From positions 233 to 36,510 of the forward strand of contig JAADFN010000007.1 of assembly GCA_013152895.1 (NCBI GenBank): a DNA stretch of 36,278 nt, written 5' to 3'. Each line of letters starts with the position of its first letter. The stretch's first letter is position 1. Source of the DNA: Acidobacteriota bacterium (GTDB taxonomy: Bacteria; Acidobacteriota; Thermoanaerobaculia; Thermoanaerobaculales; Sulfomarinibacteraceae). Below the pieces are notes generated by a model. It had not been told where the DNA came from. It searched no databases and was given only the letters and a program-made list of their open reading frames with translations. Made by a program: the position numbers and the translations under genes. Positions 22,660-29,613 of this stretch are shown piece by piece.

Positions 22660-23304
22660 TCAGCGCACGCCGTGGCGAAGGGCCAGGGTCACGGCCTCGA
22701 CCACGCTGTGAACCTGGAGCTTGGTGTAGATCGATCGCACGTGGGTTCGAACGGTATCGATGGAGATGCCGAGACGCGTGGCGACCTGCTTGTACGGAAG
22801 ACCGTCGACCAGGCAGTCGAGCACCTGCCGCTCACGTCCGGTGAGGCCCGCATCCACGCCGTGTTCATGAAAAGACGAGTGTTTCTCACCCCGGCGCACG
22901 ATCCCGAGGAGCGTGCGGGCGACACCCGCTGACAGCGGTGCGCCTCCCGCCATGATCGTTCTCAACTGATGGAGGAGCTCTTCGGGAGGCGTCCCCTTGG
23001 TCAGGTAGCCGTCGGCACCGGCACAGATGGCGTGCAAGATGGTCGCGGGGTCCTCGAAAACAGTGATGGCGACGACCCGGGTCGAGGGGACTCTCTGTTT
23101 GAGCTTCCGGGTAGCCTCGATACCACTCATACCGGGAAGGTCGATATCCATGAGCACCAGGTCCCACCGGGAATCGGCCGCCTCGAGCGCGGTCTCGGCA
23201 TCGGGAAACGCCCCCGCCATCTCGAAGCCCGGCGAGAGCTCGATGAGAGCAGCCAGGCTCTCCCTGAACCGCGGGTCATCCTCGATCACCGTAATCCGAG
23301 TCAG
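22660..23304 (-). CDS. LuxR/NarL-type response regulator, probable CTG start
   Basis: The product has a receiver domain (about residues 3-120: ITVIEDDPRF with the acidic pair, phosphorylation Asp in DLVLMDIDLPGMSG, conserved Thr-equivalent in VVAITVF, Lys in YLTKGTPPEEL) and a C-terminal NarL/LuxR helix-turn-helix (about 148-205: LTGRERQVLDCLVDGLPYKQVATRLGISIDTVRTHVRSIYTKL). Starting at the only nearby GTG (23289) would remove the first receiver strand and leave no ribosome site; a CTG at 23304 follows GGGGAGG by six bases and gives TRITVIEDD, the normal beginning. I therefore call CTG. It lies 55 nt after the sensor kinase on the same strand and is its likely partner. Confidence 0.85.
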   Translation of the reverse strand: MTRITVIEDDPRFRESLAALIELSPGFEMAGAFPDAETALEAADSRWDLVLMDIDLPGMSGIEATRKLKQRVPSTRVVAITVFEDPATILHAICAGADGYLTKGTPPEELLHQLRTIMAGGAPLSAGVARTLLGIVRRGEKHSSFHEHGVDAGLTGRERQVLDCLVDGLPYKQVATRLGISIDTVRTHVRSIYTKLQVHSVVEAVTLALRHGVR

Positions 23305-23359
23305 CGTCCACCTCCCCGAGGAGCCTTACAAGTGTGGATCCGGCCCGCCGCAATCGCCA

Positions 23360-26287
23360 TCACATGTTCATGCGACGCCGACTCCTGAAATGGCGCCGCC
23401 CGGCCGCCCCGGCCCAACACGGGTCGAAAGTCAACGTCACGATGGCGCCGGCGCCGGGAGCGGATTCGATCGCAAGCCGCGCCCCGATCGCCTCGGCCCT
23501 CCTCCACATGCTGTGCAACCCGAGGCTTACCGCGCTGTCCTGGTATTCCTCGGGGCGAAAGCCGACACCGTCGTCGGCGATCGACAACCGCCAAAGCCCA
23601 TCGCCGGCCGGTGCGACGGCCAGTTGCACCCGCTCGGCGTGAGCGTGCCGTGAAATGTTATGAAGCGCCTCGAGGCCGATGAGCAGGAGGTTGCGGCGCA
23701 CCAGTAGCGGCAACGGCCCGGGTGGCCATCGCTCGGGAACGATGACCTCGAAGCTTCCCTCCGGCCCACCCAAGAGCTTCGCACCGTGATCGGCCAACTG
23801 GGCAGCGGTGTCCCTCAGGCCGGCGTGCTGGTCTCGCAGCGACCACACGATGGCGCGCAGCGTGAAGCTCAGGCGCGCGCTGACGTCGCCGATGTCGCGG
23901 GCGAGCCCGATGCGACGCTCGGGCGAGAGCAGCTCGCCGGAGCCCATCGAGGCCAGGATTCCGATGCTGGCGAGGCCCGACCCGACCTGATCGTGCAAAT
24001 CCCCGGCGATTCTCTCGCGTTCGCGCTCGACCCGCGCGAGCGATGCCAACTGGAAGCTGCGCACGAGGGAGAGCACGCCTGCGACCGCCGCCGTCGCCAG
24101 CAAGAACGCCCACCAGGTCTGCCACCACGGGGGACGGACACGGAAGCGCAATGCCGCGGCCCGTGAGCTCCAGTGGGCCTCGTCCACCGAGGCCTGCACC
24201 GCAACCGAGTGGCGGCCGGGTGCGAGACCGCTGAGGGTGAGGCGCGAGCTGGTCCACGGTCGTGACCACATCCTGCCGTCGACGCGGCTCCGGTAGCGGA
24301 TCTTGGCGGGATCGCGAAACGATAACGCCGCGAACCGCAGGTCGAGTCGCCGGGCGTTCCAGTCGAGGATGAGTGGGGAGCGTGGCTGCCACTGTTCACC
24401 GTTGCGCAGAACCTCCACGATCACCACCGCGGGCGGCCCGACCGGGCGCGCTCGTGCGGCGGGAAGAACGTGAATGAGGCCGTTGTCCGTAGGGATCCAG
24501 AGGTTACCGTCGGCAAGCTCCAACACCTGGCCTCCGCTGCGGCTCGGCAGCCCTTGCCACGGCCCCAGGGTTTCCAGAACCCGCCACCCGCCCGGGCACT
24601 CCGGACAGGCGAGAACCCGCCGGACGAACCCCTTGCCAGCGATCCACACGCCGCCCCGCGGCGATCGTGCGAGGGAGAAGACGACCCGGCTGGGCAAGGT
24701 CTCCACTCCGGGGTGCTCCACGGCGCCACGCCGACCGAGGCGAAGGATTCCGAACCCTCTTCCGGCCAGCCACACCTCGTCACCGATCTGGGCGAGATCG
24801 AAGGCCTGTTCGACCTCCGGTTCGTCCCAGCACGTCCGCCCGGCGGGGGACCCGGCCAGCGCGGCCTCCACGGGCTGCCGGCAGATGCGTGTTCCGCTCA
24901 CCCAGATCAACTCCGACCGGGTGGTTTCGAGCACGCTGTCGACGGGCGCACCGCCATCCGTTCCGCCCCAGAGGGGTACCGTCGCCGGAACTCCGTTCCG
25001 AACAAGCTGGAGCCCGGCTTCGCCGGCGAGCCAGAGCCCGGTCCCTCCGGTCGCGCAACCACGCAGCGCGTGGGGACCGGGAATGACCCTGCGTGCCCGG
25101 CCACCCCTGTAACGGTAGAGCCCCTCCCGGTTGCCGAACCAGACGGCGCCGGTGGAGCCCGTGCACAACCGGCCGGTGGCGGACACCGGCTCGGTCGTCG
25201 CGCGCCAGCCCGCACCGTCGTCGCCGACCCGTCCCAGGCCTTGCCAGGTGGAAACGAGGACTCCATCCCCCGACCGGGCGACGTAGCGGGCATGGGCGGA
25301 CGGGAGCCCCTCGAGGTCGGTCCAGATGGTGGTATCAGGCTCGGGGAACTGGAGCAACCCCGAGAAGGTCCCCATCCACATGGAACCTTCGCGGTCGACC
25401 AGGAGCCGCCCACCGCTTGGAACACCCTCGGCGAGACCCATGACATCCGTCGCGTCGCCGGGGCCGATGCGCGCCAGGAAACGATCGAAGGCGGCCCACA
25501 CGACCGCCCCCCGTACCGCCAGCGCCACGCCCTTTCCGGGGAGCGTCAGGACCTTCGTGAACGTGACCGCCGAGGGTGGGGCGGACAGCACCTGGCCATT
25601 CAGCCTGAGCAGGATGAAACCGCCGTCGGCCCTGCGCACGACATCCGCGGCACCACTGATCGGTATGACCTGCTCGAGCTGACCGGAACTATCGATCAGC
25701 CTGACGTCCCTGGTCGTGAGCACAGCCATTGACTTGCCCAGCGAGCATAGATACCTGGGAGGATACCGCCCGAAAACCACGGGGTCCGGCTGGCCCCATG
25801 CTCTGGCCCGGATCCACACCCGGCCGTCGCGGATCACCCACAGCCGGCCGGCGACGTCGTAGGCGGCGTCTGTGATCCCGATGAGCTTGACGCCTCGTGG
25901 CCCCGGAACGGGCTCGACGCCGGTCTCGGTGGTTCGAAGGAGGGCACCGCGGGGGAGAAGGGCGAGGACACCGCGCTCGGGCCGGGCCACAACTTTCATC
26001 ACCGAGCCCGGGACACCATCACGCGCCCACCGGTCGAAGCCGTGGCCGTCGAAGCGAACAAGGCCCCCGTGAGTTCCAAGCCACAGGAATCCCTCGCGGT
26101 CCTGCACCACCGCTGTCACGGTGGCAACGGCCAGCCCGGAGGTCTCGTCGAGGCGGCGAAAGTAGCGATGCGCCGCATCGGCCCCGGTCGTGACGGCGAG
26201 CACCACCAGGACGCCGAGCCAGACCCCCACGGATCTCACACCACGCCAGGTCCACCGGCAGAGGGAGGCACTCCAGTTTGATCTCAT
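23360..26287 (-). CDS. Propeller-type sensor histidine kinase (Reg_prop/Y_Y_Y/HisKA_3/HATPase)
   Basis: The 975-residue protein has an N-terminal signal or anchor helix (about 17-38), a long periplasmic region (about 40-640) of beta-propeller repeats such as VVQDREGFLWLGTHGGLVRFDG, a Y_Y_Y-like domain (about 650-718, LDLRFAALSFRDPAKIRYRSRVDG), a membrane helix (about 722-745), a HisKA_3 dimer domain with the phospho-His in RIAGDLHDQVGSGL (about residue 763), and an HATPase (about 860-965) with HNISRHA, DDGVGF and GLHSMWRRAEAIGARLAIES. All kinase motifs are intact. Ligand is unknown; in the family, glycans or other polymers are common for hybrid relatives. The ATG at 26287 lacks a ribosome site but lies seven bases after a TGTTACACT extended -10, suggesting a leaderless mRNA. 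It probably phosphorylates the regulator encoded next. Confidence 0.92.
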   Translation of the reverse strand: MRSNWSASLCRWTWRGVRSVGVWLGVLVVLAVTTGADAAHRYFRRLDETSGLAVATVTAVVQDREGFLWLGTHGGLVRFDGHGFDRWARDGVPGSVMKVVARPERGVLALLPRGALLRTTETGVEPVPGPRGVKLIGITDAAYDVAGRLWVIRDGRVWIRARAWGQPDPVVFGRYPPRYLCSLGKSMAVLTTRDVRLIDSSGQLEQVIPISGAADVVRRADGGFILLRLNGQVLSAPPSAVTFTKVLTLPGKGVALAVRGAVVWAAFDRFLARIGPGDATDVMGLAEGVPSGGRLLVDREGSMWMGTFSGLLQFPEPDTTIWTDLEGLPSAHARYVARSGDGVLVSTWQGLGRVGDDGAGWRATTEPVSATGRLCTGSTGAVWFGNREGLYRYRGGRARRVIPGPHALRGCATGGTGLWLAGEAGLQLVRNGVPATVPLWGGTDGGAPVDSVLETTRSELIWVSGTRICRQPVEAALAGSPAGRTCWDEPEVEQAFDLAQIGDEVWLAGRGFGILRLGRRGAVEHPGVETLPSRVVFSLARSPRGGVWIAGKGFVRRVLACPECPGGWRVLETLGPWQGLPSRSGGQVLELADGNLWIPTDNGLIHVLPAARARPVGPPAVVIVEVLRNGEQWQPRSPLILDWNARRLDLRFAALSFRDPAKIRYRSRVDGRMWSRPWTSSRLTLSGLAPGRHSVAVQASVDEAHWSSRAAALRFRVRPPWWQTWWAFLLATAAVAGVLSLVRSFQLASLARVERERERIAGDLHDQVGSGLASIGILASMGSGELLSPERRIGLARDIGDVSARLSFTLRAIVWSLRDQHAGLRDTAAQLADHGAKLLGGPEGSFEVIVPERWPPGPLPLLVRRNLLLIGLEALHNISRHAHAERVQLAVAPAGDGLWRLSIADDGVGFRPEEYQDSAVSLGLHSMWRRAEAIGARLAIESAPGAGAIVTLTFDPCWAGAAGRRHFRSRRRMNM

Positions 26288-26303: not shown

Positions 26304-26465
26304 TAGTGTGCAATAACAGGCTTGCGTGAGCGGCGCGATCCCGTGCCGGGTCCCCAATAATCCGATCAATCCGTGGCTTTCTGGGCTTCGACTTTTCCGG
26401 ACGGCGGGATGCCCGACGGCATGTAGCGCTTGCTGATTGACACCGGAATCGATTATGGTGTCGGT

Positions 26466-27566
26466 ATGAGCGATCCGCAGCTTATCTGGCGTTTTGGCCG
26501 GTGGGTCGGTGCCCGGAGCACCGGGACGGCCCGGCTTGGCTGGACCGGCGGCGGCCTCATTCTTGCCGTGCGCGGGGCCAAGGCCGTCTCGGTCGAGGGG
26601 CCCGATCCATCTGACGTTTCGAACGCGCTCGGCTGTTCCCCCACGGGGCAGACGAATCTCCTGCTAGAGGCCCGGGCGGCCGCGTCGCGCACGGGCGCCG
26701 ATGAGACCCGGGCGGTTGCCATCGTCAAGTCGATCGTGGAAGCGGGGATCCGCTCGTGGATTCTCGACGAACGCCGGACCCTCGAGTTGGTTGAAGGTGA
26801 GGTCCCGGCCGGTGATGGCCCTACCATCTCTCTCCCGCACGCCATCGTTGAAATGGTGCTTTCCGACGAGAGTGACGAGCTGCCGCGAACGGTTCTGCAG
26901 GATCGCCGGGTTCTCTTGCGGCGCAGCCCCGGGTTCCTGGAAGGGTACGCCTCGCTCCAGTTGACCGAAGAGGCCGACCTGGTCGCCGCCAAGATTACCG
27001 GTCAGCGAACGGCGGAAGAGATCATCGAGCGTTCCCCGCAGGACAGCGACGAGGTCATGCGGCTCCTGGTCGCGCTGGTGGTCGCAGGATTCCTCGAGCC
27101 CGTCCTCGTCGCCGATCTCGAGCAGGAGCGCGCGAGTATCGATCCCGTCTTCGTTCCACCGGTCCAGGCGGCGGCGCGCCGGCTCCCGCCGGCCCTGATC
27201 ATCGGCGGTGTAATCCTCCTGGCGGTGATCCTTGCCGCCGTTGGCTGGCTCGTTCTCCATCACGCACATTCCAAGACAGCCTCGCCGGCCCGCTGGGGAA
27301 TCGTCATCGATCGCGGATGCCAGCCACAGGATCTCCAGAGAATCCTCGAGAAAGCGGGAAAGCACCCGCGAAAGCTCGTCGCCCAACCCGACAGTCAGAA
27401 AATGTCTGAGCCGTGCTGGGAGCTGGTCTGGGGAAGCTTCCGCTCCAAGGCTGAAGCTCGCAAGGCGCTCGCTAGAATTCCGAAGAGTCTCGTTCGGAGG
27501 GGCGTGACCGGGAGAATCGTCACGTTGAGCAAAACGCCGGGTTCGCCCGGCGGCCGAGGAAACTGA
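26466..27566 (+). CDS. Membrane-anchored protein with winged-helix-like module and SPOR-like tail, function unknown
   Basis: The 366-residue protein has a DUF4388-like N-terminal region of weak similarity (about 1-110), a compact helical module (about 155-215: EADLVAAKITGQRTAEEIIE ... LLVALVVAGFLEPV) that parallels a segment in the next gene, one membrane helix (about 239-265, ALIIGGVILLAVILAAVGWLVL), and a C-terminal segment with CWELVWGSFRSKAEARKALARI, which resembles SPOR peptidoglycan-binding repeats. ATG 26466 is favoured: no ribosome site, but TATGGT ends six bases before it. An upstream TTG in frame is the alternative. It abuts the next gene with no spacer, so the two probably act together. 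A role in envelope or polarity scaffolding is a guess from the SPOR-like tail. Confidence 0.75.
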   Translation: MSDPQLIWRFGRWVGARSTGTARLGWTGGGLILAVRGAKAVSVEGPDPSDVSNALGCSPTGQTNLLLEARAAASRTGADETRAVAIVKSIVEAGIRSWILDERRTLELVEGEVPAGDGPTISLPHAIVEMVLSDESDELPRTVLQDRRVLLRRSPGFLEGYASLQLTEEADLVAAKITGQRTAEEIIERSPQDSDEVMRLLVALVVAGFLEPVLVADLEQERASIDPVFVPPVQAAARRLPPALIIGGVILLAVILAAVGWLVLHHAHSKTASPARWGIVIDRGCQPQDLQRILEKAGKHPRKLVAQPDSQKMSEPCWELVWGSFRSKAEARKALARIPKSLVRRGVTGRIVTLSKTPGSPGGRGN

Positions 27567-29138
27567 ATGGCTCCGCACCAGAAAAGTCGCCTCGATCTGC
27601 GCCGGTCGTTGCCCCTCCCGGAGCTCATGGCCACCGCCCAGTACAACCGGTCAACGGGAATTCTCCGCGCCTCGGACGGGTCGGCGACCCGTGAGCTCAT
27701 CTTCGTCAACGGCGAGCTTCGGGCAGCCCATTCCAATCTCGAAGACGAAAAGCTGGGAAGCTGGCTGGTTGGGCGAGATCTGATCTCGGAGGATGAGAAG
27801 GCACTGGCCCTGCTCTCCCAGGGTGCCACCGACCAGCCGCCACTCGGGCATCTCCTCGTCCGGCGCGGGTGCATCGAACAGGATGCCCTGGAGCACGAGC
27901 TTGAAGACCTGACCGTCACGATCGTCCGCCGGGCAGCCGCGACACTTCGGACCTTGAACGAGTTCGTCGAGGGCCGGACGAGCAGCCAACCCGATACGAT
28001 TCCCAATCTGACGACGCCCCAGGTGATCCTGGTCGCGGCGCGCAGCCTCTCGAACCTGGAGGTTATCCGGTCCAATCTCGAGCCGCTGGAACAGGTCGCA
28101 TGGCCGAGCACGAGCCTTGAAACGCTTCTGAACGAGTTCACGTTGACGCCACAGGAGGCGTTCATCATCAGCCGGATGGACGGAAGCCGCTCCCTCAAGG
28201 GCCTGGCGGCCGTGCTCCCGGGCGGCGAAAACGAGGTGCTCCCAATTCTCTACGCCCTCCGCATGGCGGGCATCATCATCGTCGGAACGGCGTCGGAACA
28301 GACCAGGACCTTCACGCCGGACTTTTCCAGCGAGCCACCGGGCTCCGGCCAGCACATCAGCATCGTTGACGAGGCAAGCCTCGAGCCATCGCAGCTGAGC
28401 GAACGCGAGAGAATCCGGCGCCTGGCCGGCGAGTGCCAGCGCATGGATCATTATCGCGTCTTGGGTCTCGAACCGGGAGCACACAACAACGACATCCGGG
28501 GGGCGTGGGAACGTATCCAACAGGAGTTTTCTCCCGACAACTCCTCGATTCCACACCTTCGTGATCTCAAACCCGAGCTGACCACGATTGTCGATCGCGC
28601 CCGCGAGGCCTACGAGGTGCTCGCAGACCCCCGCTCCAGGAAACGGTACAACACGGTACTCCGGTCGATGCAGGACGAGGTCGAGCGGGCGAAGCGTGCC
28701 ACACGAGCGCCGAGGATCGATCCCCGTGTCAGGGCCCAGCTCGTCGAAGCCAATATCAAACGCGCCAGCGAGCTGATTCACAGTGGCGAGCCATACCTGG
28801 CCATCAAGCTGCTCGAACAGGCGTGCGAGATCGAGCGGCGGCCCGATGCTCTGCTCCAGCTCGCACGGCTTCTTCTGCGCAACCCACTCTGGAAGAACCG
28901 TGCGCTCAAGACGCTCCGCCTGGCGATCGAGGCCGACCCGCACTTCGTCGACGCCTGGATCGAGCTCGCCGAGTTCTGGAGGCGGCGGCAGAATCCCGAG
29001 CGGCAGCGCAAGGCTCTCGAACGTGCCGTCGCCGCCGATCCTGACCACGAGAAGGCCACCACGATGTACCGGCAGCTGATGGGTCAACGGGAGCTGGAGC
29101 GCCTCCTCAGCCGGGCGCGGCGCAGCCAAGCCAGGTAG
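27567..29138 (+). CDS. DUF4388 (PATAN-like) protein with degenerate J domain and TPRs
   Basis: The 523-residue protein starts with a DUF4388-type domain (about 15-115: LPELMATAQYNRSTGILRA ... RELIFVNGELRAAHSN), then a winged-helix-like module (about 190-250: LTPQEAFIISRMDGSRSLKGLA ... LRMAGIIIVG), a J-like domain (about 293-358: DHYRVLGLEPGAHNNDIRGAW ... AREAYEVLADPRSRKRYN) and TPR-like helices (about 400-505). The HPD tripeptide that activates Hsp70 is replaced by S322-P323-D324, so classic co-chaperone activity is unlikely. ATG 27567 follows the previous stop directly, with GAGGA six bases upstream. No signal or membrane segment is seen; it is a cytoplasmic scaffold or regulator by inference, coupled to the membrane protein encoded just before. 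Confidence 0.85.
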   Translation: MAPHQKSRLDLRRSLPLPELMATAQYNRSTGILRASDGSATRELIFVNGELRAAHSNLEDEKLGSWLVGRDLISEDEKALALLSQGATDQPPLGHLLVRRGCIEQDALEHELEDLTVTIVRRAAATLRTLNEFVEGRTSSQPDTIPNLTTPQVILVAARSLSNLEVIRSNLEPLEQVAWPSTSLETLLNEFTLTPQEAFIISRMDGSRSLKGLAAVLPGGENEVLPILYALRMAGIIIVGTASEQTRTFTPDFSSEPPGSGQHISIVDEASLEPSQLSERERIRRLAGECQRMDHYRVLGLEPGAHNNDIRGAWERIQQEFSPDNSSIPHLRDLKPELTTIVDRAREAYEVLADPRSRKRYNTVLRSMQDEVERAKRATRAPRIDPRVRAQLVEANIKRASELIHSGEPYLAIKLLEQACEIERRPDALLQLARLLLRNPLWKNRALKTLRLAIEADPHFVDAWIELAEFWRRRQNPERQRKALERAVAADPDHEKATTMYRQLMGQRELERLLSRARRSQAR

Positions 29139-29163: not shown

Positions 29164-29613
29164 ATGCCTTTTCTCATCGATGGGAACAACCTGATGCACG
29201 CGTTGCCGGCCGGCCGCCGTAGCCGTGACGCCGTCAGGCAGATGATGCTCGACCTCGCGCGCCGCGAACGGATCTCGATCACCCTCGTCTTCGACGGCCC
29301 CCCCGCAACCGGGGTCCCGGAGCGGGAAAACCTTGGCCGGGTGACCGTCATCTACAGCGGGGCGTCATCCGCCGACGATGTGCTGATTCGCCTCCTGCCA
29401 CAAAGGCCCGCCGTGCAGAGCTGGACGCTCGTCACCGATGACCGGGAGCTGACGGCCCGCGCCCGAAACGCCGGCGCACGGACGCGCCGTCTCTCGGAAT
29501 GGCGGCACAAGCTCACAGGTGTCATCCGGCCAGGCGGAAAGCCGGAGAAGACACTGTCGGAAGCCGAAATCCACGAGTGGGAAGACTACTTTCGCAAGGG
29601 CGGAGGTTCCTGA
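29164..29613 (+). CDS. NYN-domain (YacP-like) RNase
   Basis: The 149-residue protein has the PIN-like NYN fold: FLIDGNNLMHA at the N-terminus (first catalytic Asp), LVFDGPP at about 42-48, the acidic pair in SSADDVLIRLL at about 74-84, and LVTDDRELTARARNAGA at about 95-111. These are the metal-binding Asp residues of the family, which cleaves RNA. YacP-type proteins take part in RNA decay or maturation; the substrate here is unknown. The ATG has GGGGAGG about five bases upstream. It lies 25 bp after the DUF4388 gene and is probably in the same unit. Confidence 0.87.
   Translation: MPFLIDGNNLMHALPAGRRSRDAVRQMMLDLARRERISITLVFDGPPATGVPERENLGRVTVIYSGASSADDVLIRLLPQRPAVQSWTLVTDDRELTARARNAGARTRRLSEWRHKLTGVIRPGGKPEKTLSEAEIHEWEDYFRKGGGS

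Follow-up and report, generated by a model that had tools for sequence, protein, structure and literature searches.

A linked gene pair sharing a PATAN-winged-helix module in Acidobacteriota as a candidate cell-envelope landmark at septum or pole

We describe a conserved gene pair, here called A and B, in a 36,278-nucleotide stretch of DNA from an Acidobacteriota bacterium (assembly GCA_013152895.1, contig JAADFN010000007.1, positions 233 to 36,510 of the forward strand), which we refer to as the window. Gene A encodes a predicted membrane protein with a SPOR-like tail, and gene B encodes a protein with a J domain and TPR repeats. Both proteins begin with a module that combines a DUF4388/PATAN core with a winged helix, and a gene for a YacP-like NYN-domain protein follows. 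We propose, with a probability of about 0.5, that A and B together form a cell-envelope landmark and scaffold at the septum or pole. The architectures, the homology of the module, the linkage of the genes, and the occurrence of SPOR and PATAN parts in fused or split form are all read from sequence. Within its genome bin (2.99 Mb, 97% complete), the window corresponds to contig C7; its nearest named relatives are Acidobacteriota metagenome-assembled genomes, one of them Thermoanaerobaculia. Acidobacteriota are abundant in soils, and to our knowledge their cell division, pole setting and pilus placement are poorly understood.

In the mechanism that we propose, A would be a bitopic inner-membrane protein whose SPOR domain, on the outside, would bind denuded peptidoglycan. 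Denuded glycan arises at the division septum and is thereby passed on to the new poles, and the PATAN-winged-helix module of A would be displayed on the inside at one of these sites. Docking of B on A, probably through contact between the two modules, would supply the site of A with a TPR scaffold and, in most lineages, with a J domain that recruits Hsp70. The client would probably be the divisome or else the motor that extends type IV pili, and YacP would complete the conserved trio, possibly by acting on mRNA close to the site.

The module common to A and B

The two genes abut, the TGA of A being followed directly by the ATG of B (27566/27567), as a preliminary description of the locus had stated from the sequence alone. 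That description had also pointed to a winged-helix-like segment common to both proteins; the segments that it quoted (A residues 169 to 186 and B residues 196 to 213) both lie within predicted winged helices, and the shared element proved to be larger. When the two ortholog families (29 A and 28 B orthologs in the alignments) were compared with hhalign, residues 9 to 214 of A were collinear with residues 20 to 241 of B (96% probability, E 4e-9), compared to a probability of 0.3% for a negative control in which the A profile was set against the C-terminal half of B. The winged helix gave the strongest signal (E 1.1e-9), and the PATAN core by itself a weak one (0.01); we therefore base the homology of the core on the collinearity, the separate DUF4388 matches of the two families and the predicted structures.

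We built AlphaFold2 models of A and B on a shallow alignment of four sequences (the window and related loci). In both models the module runs in the same order of helix, three strands, helices, long helix, strand, two helices, strand and winged helix with a final strand, and one helix that B has in the insertion is missing from A. Model confidence within the module is approximately 80 to 95 for A and mostly 70 to 93 for B. Structure prediction, named as a check in the preliminary description, thus gave matching folds. As judged from profiles and models, the whole N-terminal halves of A and B are one homologous module, DUF4388/PATAN plus winged helix, which supports the earlier view that one part was used to build both a membrane protein and a cytoplasmic one.

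DUF4388 and PATAN, which we take to be the same domain, were assigned using Pfam. The bit-score cut-offs were 25 for DUF4388 (PF14332), 21 for SPOR (PF05036), 27.8 for DnaJ (PF00226) and 24.6 for YacP-like NYN (PF05991). B exceeds the cut-offs for DUF4388 (38.4 bits) and DnaJ (33.2 bits) and also matches TPR; DUF4388 was matched by all 28 B orthologs. The window's own A, taken alone, has no DUF4388 match in Pfam. Matches were found in 13 of 29 A orthologs (best 7.7e-5), those viewed singly falling below the cut-off, and A relatives from other families exceed it outright (31.8 to 68.8 bits). The most conserved part of B is the TPR region, with 96% identity to the nearest relative, and TPRs filled the results of a VIA structure search with B. 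Searches with the A model by Foldseek and VIA returned winged helices (best Z 9.5, 73 aligned residues, root mean square deviation 2.5). Among these, we rejected GATOR1 subunits and Lrp-like regulators as functional relatives of A: the resemblance seems confined to the winged helix, and the PATAN core is barely covered. A had no match in PHROGs.

The tail of A was assigned at the level of the ortholog family. The window's own A alone has no SPOR match in Pfam up to E 5 and does not reach the cut-off, whereas 22 of the 29 A orthologs match SPOR (E<1), the best at E 1.3e-5 and 25.9 bits. Most single members fall short of the cut-off, so the assignment holds for the ortholog family only. In the PDB, the A profile significantly matches a single entry, the DamX SPOR domain (2lfv, E 9e-4). 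These two lines bear out the SPOR-like tail named earlier, and the orthologs and the AlphaFold2 model agree on a bitopic topology with a C-terminal SPOR-like domain. On the usual reading, the module is predicted to be cytoplasmic and the SPOR-like domain periplasmic. Cys285 and Cys317 of this domain are invariant in 29 sequences and may form a disulfide.

In outline, A resembles the bitopic SPOR proteins of the divisome, FtsN, DedD and DamX, with a cytoplasmic N terminus, a single transmembrane helix and a C-terminal SPOR-like domain. The likeness extends to the long Pro/Ala-rich periplasmic linker of A in most other families, which is almost absent from the form in the window's own family (f1) and the sister family of the same order (f2). 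Unlike those proteins, A carries a PATAN-winged-helix module as its cytoplasmic part and two invariant cysteines in the SPOR-like domain, and it is paired with a PATAN-J-TPR gene and an NYN ribonuclease gene. With the PATAN proteins PatA and PixE/PixG, A and B have in common the DUF4388/PATAN module with a helical insertion. They differ from PatA and PixE/PixG in lacking a receiver domain and in having a winged helix after the PATAN core, with a membrane anchor and SPOR added in A and a J domain and TPRs added in B.

Linkage of the genes and the state of the J domain

A and B are same-strand neighbors in all 30 other f1 and f2 genomes surveyed, mostly a few to 33 bases apart or overlapping. 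The neighborhood search, on which the preliminary description had let the pairing stand or fall, thus found the genes linked in relatives. YacP follows B in all but three of these relatives, and in those three the contig ends first. Linkage of YacP to A and B was found at 28 of 31 f1/f2 loci and also in families f4, f7, f10, f11, f20, f41, f46 and f53 (in f53, YacP is divergent from A). The order A-B-YacP recurs in f11 and f10. A and B are also paired in f54, and in f34 and f59 they have one gene between them and lie within approximately 1.5 kb. In f7, f4, f20 and f46, YacP is linked to A with no B nearby; the YacP linkage therefore extends to families without a nearby B. Neither B nor YacP lies near A at the loci of f28, f42, f63 and f78.

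On the cytoplasmic side, the SPOR protein of f21 and f41 has just a short tail next to its transmembrane helix and no PATAN module, yet a PATAN-J-TPR gene is nearby (as is YacP in f41). The SPOR and PATAN halves can thus, to judge by domain content, be supplied in one protein or by two neighboring genes. This fused-or-split distribution is our best argument that a SPOR anchor and a PATAN scaffold work together.

Alternatively, A, B and YacP might have no joint function and stand together by old synteny, the module being a common domain of otherwise unrelated proteins. DUF4388 is indeed common, with nine matches in the window's genome, flanking genes such as ALDH likewise stay linked within f1, and A has a promoter-like element of its own, as does B in f2. 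However, ALDH is linked within f1 only, and the other flanking genes change completely among families. Because the linkage of A, B and YacP outlasts this complete change of neighbors across many families, we consider mere synteny improbable.

For a wider view, we searched 396 sampled Acidobacteriota genomes with an A profile made from f1 and f2 only (E 1e-4), a search that will miss distant relatives. Matches were found in 105 genomes; some span only one part of A, and the count is a rough guide only.

Two further genes occur at some of these loci. A gene for an apparently secreted TPR protein with a peptidase-MA-like domain adjoins A (L124:5323-6792, L136:7665-8960); it stands between A and B in f59 and has a similar position in f34. 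A gene for a DUF4126 (PF13548) membrane protein lies between B and YacP in a second copy of the set on contig C19 (L029:1330-1881) and after A in f7 (L062:11060-11617 and, by eye, L063:11502-12059). It is likely also present in L032 and L043, where gaps of approximately 530 bases separate B and YacP. We regard this gene, which the window lacks, as an apparent fourth member of the operon, present only in some copies.

The suggestion that the adjacent YacP-like RNase might belong to the system gains support from this conserved linkage, and on gene order we count YacP as part of the A-B unit. The protein resembles the YacP/Rae1 NYN ribonucleases in its PF05991 score above the cut-off and in its DGNN, FDG and AD residues, the conserved acidic D residues of NYN being kept across 31 sequences. 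Unlike YacP/Rae1, it is a short (approximately 150 aa) putative NYN protein tied genetically to a SPOR-PATAN protein. Rae1 of Bacillus subtilis, a relative of YacP, is a translation-dependent endonuclease. The locus might accordingly encode a membrane-tethered ribonuclease station, with YacP as the effector and A and B holding it, and perhaps ribosomes, near the membrane; the retained acidic residues and the linkage of A to YacP both with and without a nearby B would fit. YacP was not found beside A in f28, f39, f42, f54, f63 and f78, however, and neither A nor B has an RNA-specific feature, which makes this version quite unlikely.

The J domain of B matches its Pfam profile and carries S322-P323-D324 in place of HPD, confirming that part of the preliminary description. 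HPD is found in none of 17 f1 sequences, in which the tripeptide is SPD, SPE, SPT, SPS, SPK, APE, GSE, DPE or others. By comparison, HPD is intact in 11 of 11 aligned f2 orthologs and in the B proteins read from f11, f21, f34, f38, f41, f54 and f59. The earlier idea of a J domain freed from Hsp70 is therefore no property of the system as a whole: because almost every other family keeps HPD and all 17 aligned f1 members have lost it, coupling to Hsp70 was probably ancestral and lost in f1. The f1 J domain is about as conserved as neighboring parts of B (mean identity 49%), with a nonsynonymous divergence (dN) of 0.086 and a saturated synonymous divergence (dS) relative to the nearest relative, and its present role may be that of a binding surface. 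No J domain was detected in the B protein of f10 (L087:7128-8447), which has the module and the TPRs. A separate DUF4388-J protein in f4 (L099:2647-4203) has DPE, an apparently independent loss of HPD. Compared with J-domain co-chaperones such as the cyanobacterial DnaJ3 at pilus motors (PMC9239167), the J domain of B is of normal length and HPD is mostly intact; it differs in lying between a PATAN module and TPRs, in the loss of HPD in f1 and in being undetected in f10.

Candidate sites of action

The ligand of the SPOR domain and the cyanobacterial partners of PATAN have already been characterized, so the function may be more nameable than the preliminary description allowed; the options that it listed, envelope signaling, polarity or motility regulation, remain sensible. 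Denuded glycans, which septal amidases produce by stripping off the peptides, are what SPOR domains bind (PMC6895207), and an FtsN-like SPOR protein of Sinorhizobium is required for reliable selection of the new pole (PMC7822825). A direct PATAN-PilB interaction in Synechocystis is given, citing Han 2022, in PMC10519157. The PATAN protein PatA of Anabaena, in its full-length form, binds SepF and ZipN (PMC7380572). PATAN proteins of Myxococcus co-occur with the polar pilus regulator SgmX (PMC11580455), and a DnaK/DnaJ pair acts at the polar pilus motors of Nostoc (PMC9239167).

These precedents allow two specific versions. In the first, A and B would position or activate PilB at the pole, as do the PATAN regulators of Synechocystis and SgmX/SopA of Myxococcus. 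PATAN-PilB is the best documented role of the domain (PMC10519157, PMC7690835), and in other bacteria TPR and J-domain proteins are known to work with pilus motors at the pole (PMC11580455, PMC9239167). Seven matches to the T2SSE ATPase family were counted in the window's genome, and PilB scored above the cut-off in 34 of 40 genomes tested. No pilus gene was recognized beside A and B in the loci read, however, and we hold this version only tentatively. In the second, A would act as an FtsN/DedD/DamX-like regulator of cell separation or of peptidoglycan synthesis at the septum, its PATAN module contacting the Z-ring as PatA does. The topology, the match to DamX, the long linkers in most families and the near-universal presence of A in f1 and f2 agree with it, as does an RlpA-like neighbor: in f39, the gene after A encodes an RlpA-like DPBB and SPOR protein (L119:6091-6945, L121:7978-8829), which leans toward septal peptidoglycan. 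On the other side, A has almost no periplasmic linker in f1 and f2, and no fts or mur cluster was recognized beside A in the loci read; the division version is possible but somewhat doubtful as well. Because PilB is nearly universal, the co-occurrence of A and PilB is uninformative and we discarded it as evidence. For the same reason, and because no pilus or division operon was recognized beside the pair in the loci read, we treat pilus motor and divisome as about equally likely clients.

Several observations weigh against a SPOR-anchored landmark of either kind. Most single A sequences fall below the Pfam cut-off for SPOR, and in the AlphaFold2 model the SPOR-like part is of low confidence (predicted local distance difference test, pLDDT, approximately 30 to 72), with 2lfv appearing in Foldseek at E 1.9. 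The presence of PilB does not track that of A: genome G357 has A but no PilB above the cut-off, and several genomes (many, in the wider comparison) without a detected A have PilB. Finally, A was undetected in the rest of the 396 Acidobacteriota genomes, in a search that is insensitive outside the order.

A role for B as a second-messenger receptor was also considered, in which MshEN-like helices in the PATAN insertion of B (and of longer forms of A) would bind cyclic di-GMP. B matches an NCBIfam MshE-related cyclic di-GMP domain (E 2.8e-4) at a score of 20.6 bits against a cut-off of 38. Nine of the 28 aligned B orthologs, each of them from f2, have one or two copies of a relaxed motif, which no f1 member has, the window included. 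The published strict motif, defined as two copies of RLGxx(L/V/I)(L/V/I)xxG(L/V/I)(L/V/I)xxxxLxxxLxxQ, was found in no A or B sequence tested. Because the motif is absent, binding is unlikely, and we rejected cyclic di-GMP sensing by the window's B on these grounds; as a general account, the receptor reading is highly improbable.

Expression signals, further neighbors and implications

The coordinates of the features are collected in Table 1. A -10-like hexamer lies 5 to 9 bases upstream of the A start codon in 27 of 29 orthologs (1.3 expected from shuffles), a -35-like hexamer is also present in 23 of 29 (0.2 expected), and a Shine-Dalgarno-like site precedes A in only one of 29. Given the position of the -10-like hexamer and the near absence of Shine-Dalgarno sites, the A transcript is predicted to be leaderless in f1 and f2, starting at about the start codon. 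The same arrangement was found before 10 of 30 B genes, the junctions displayed being from f2, and not before YacP, which served as a control gene. A generic sigma-70 scan of the window returned no site.

Table 1. Features of the A-B-YacP locus (window positions)
Feature	Position	Strand	Details and basis
Gene A, bitopic, PATAN/DUF4388 - winged helix - transmembrane - SPOR-like	26466..27566	+	366 aa, ATG start
A residues 4-112, divergent DUF4388/PATAN core	26475..26801	+	hhalign collinear with B; ortholog DUF4388 matches; AlphaFold2 pLDDT approximately 80-95
A residues 138-215, winged helix common with B	26877..27110	+	hhalign E 1.1e-9; structural matches
A residues 242-268, predicted transmembrane helix	27189..27269	+	Hydrophobic helix in AlphaFold2; hydrophobicity conserved in orthologs
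A residues 274-357, SPOR-like domain, expected periplasmic	27285..27536	+	Ortholog Pfam matches; DamX PDB match
Gene B, DUF4388/PATAN - winged helix - J - TPR, no transmembrane helix	27567..29138	+	523 aa
B residues 14-162, DUF4388/PATAN with MshEN-like helical insertion (62-112)	27606..28052	+	PF14332 1.4e-9
B residues 165-240, winged helix common with A	28059..28286	+	hhalign, AlphaFold2
B residues 293-365, J domain	28443..28661	+	PF00226 5.6e-8
B SPD replacing HPD, S322-P323-D324	28530-28538	+	Alignment
B residues 391-505, TPR repeats	28737..29081	+	Pfam; structural match Z approximately 15 to TPR domains
YacP-like NYN-domain gene	29164..29613	+	149 aa; PF05991 36.3 bits (cut-off 24.6), 6.9e-9
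Promoter-like element before A	26430..26465	+	TTGCTG (26430-26435) - 18 nt - TATGGT (26454-26459), 6 nt before ATG

Upstream of A, on the minus strand, lies a divergent two-component pair of a sensor kinase and a response regulator (22660-26287). The kinase has a long N-terminal part resembling a beta-propeller, and the pair is not conserved as a neighbor in the relatives searched. The second set of genes on contig C19 (L029) of the same bin has identities to the window's copies of 48% for A, 57% for B, 49% for YacP and 79% for ALDH. We do not take this set as a sign of duplication, given that this distance is of the between-genus kind and that nearly every relative has one copy. Because the C19 set clusters, with weak support, with another genus (G007) and relatives are nearly all single-copy, C19 is likely a stray contaminating contig in the metagenome bin. 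It adjoins type I-E cas-like genes (Cas3- and Cse1-like, by eye).

A literature search returned no description of a SPOR-PATAN pairing, and the two papers mentioning both were unrelated by title; the domains are known and, within the papers searched, their combination is new. In its widest form, which we consider unlikely, the proposal would be of an old Acidobacteriota system in which the chemical memory of the septum held in denuded glycan is passed to a PATAN platform, with Hsp70 brought in by the J-TPR protein and an NYN ribonuclease co-opted, both in most lineages. This would couple pilus motors, and possibly local mRNA turnover, to the division site and to pole identity, and the f1 J domain would be a pure binding module. 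That domain offers a natural experiment, one family having lost HPD while the domain is still under purifying selection. The SPOR-PATAN protein is, for its part, a concrete trans-envelope candidate that would link septal peptidoglycan to pilus motors and the Z-ring, the processes in which PATAN is known to take part.

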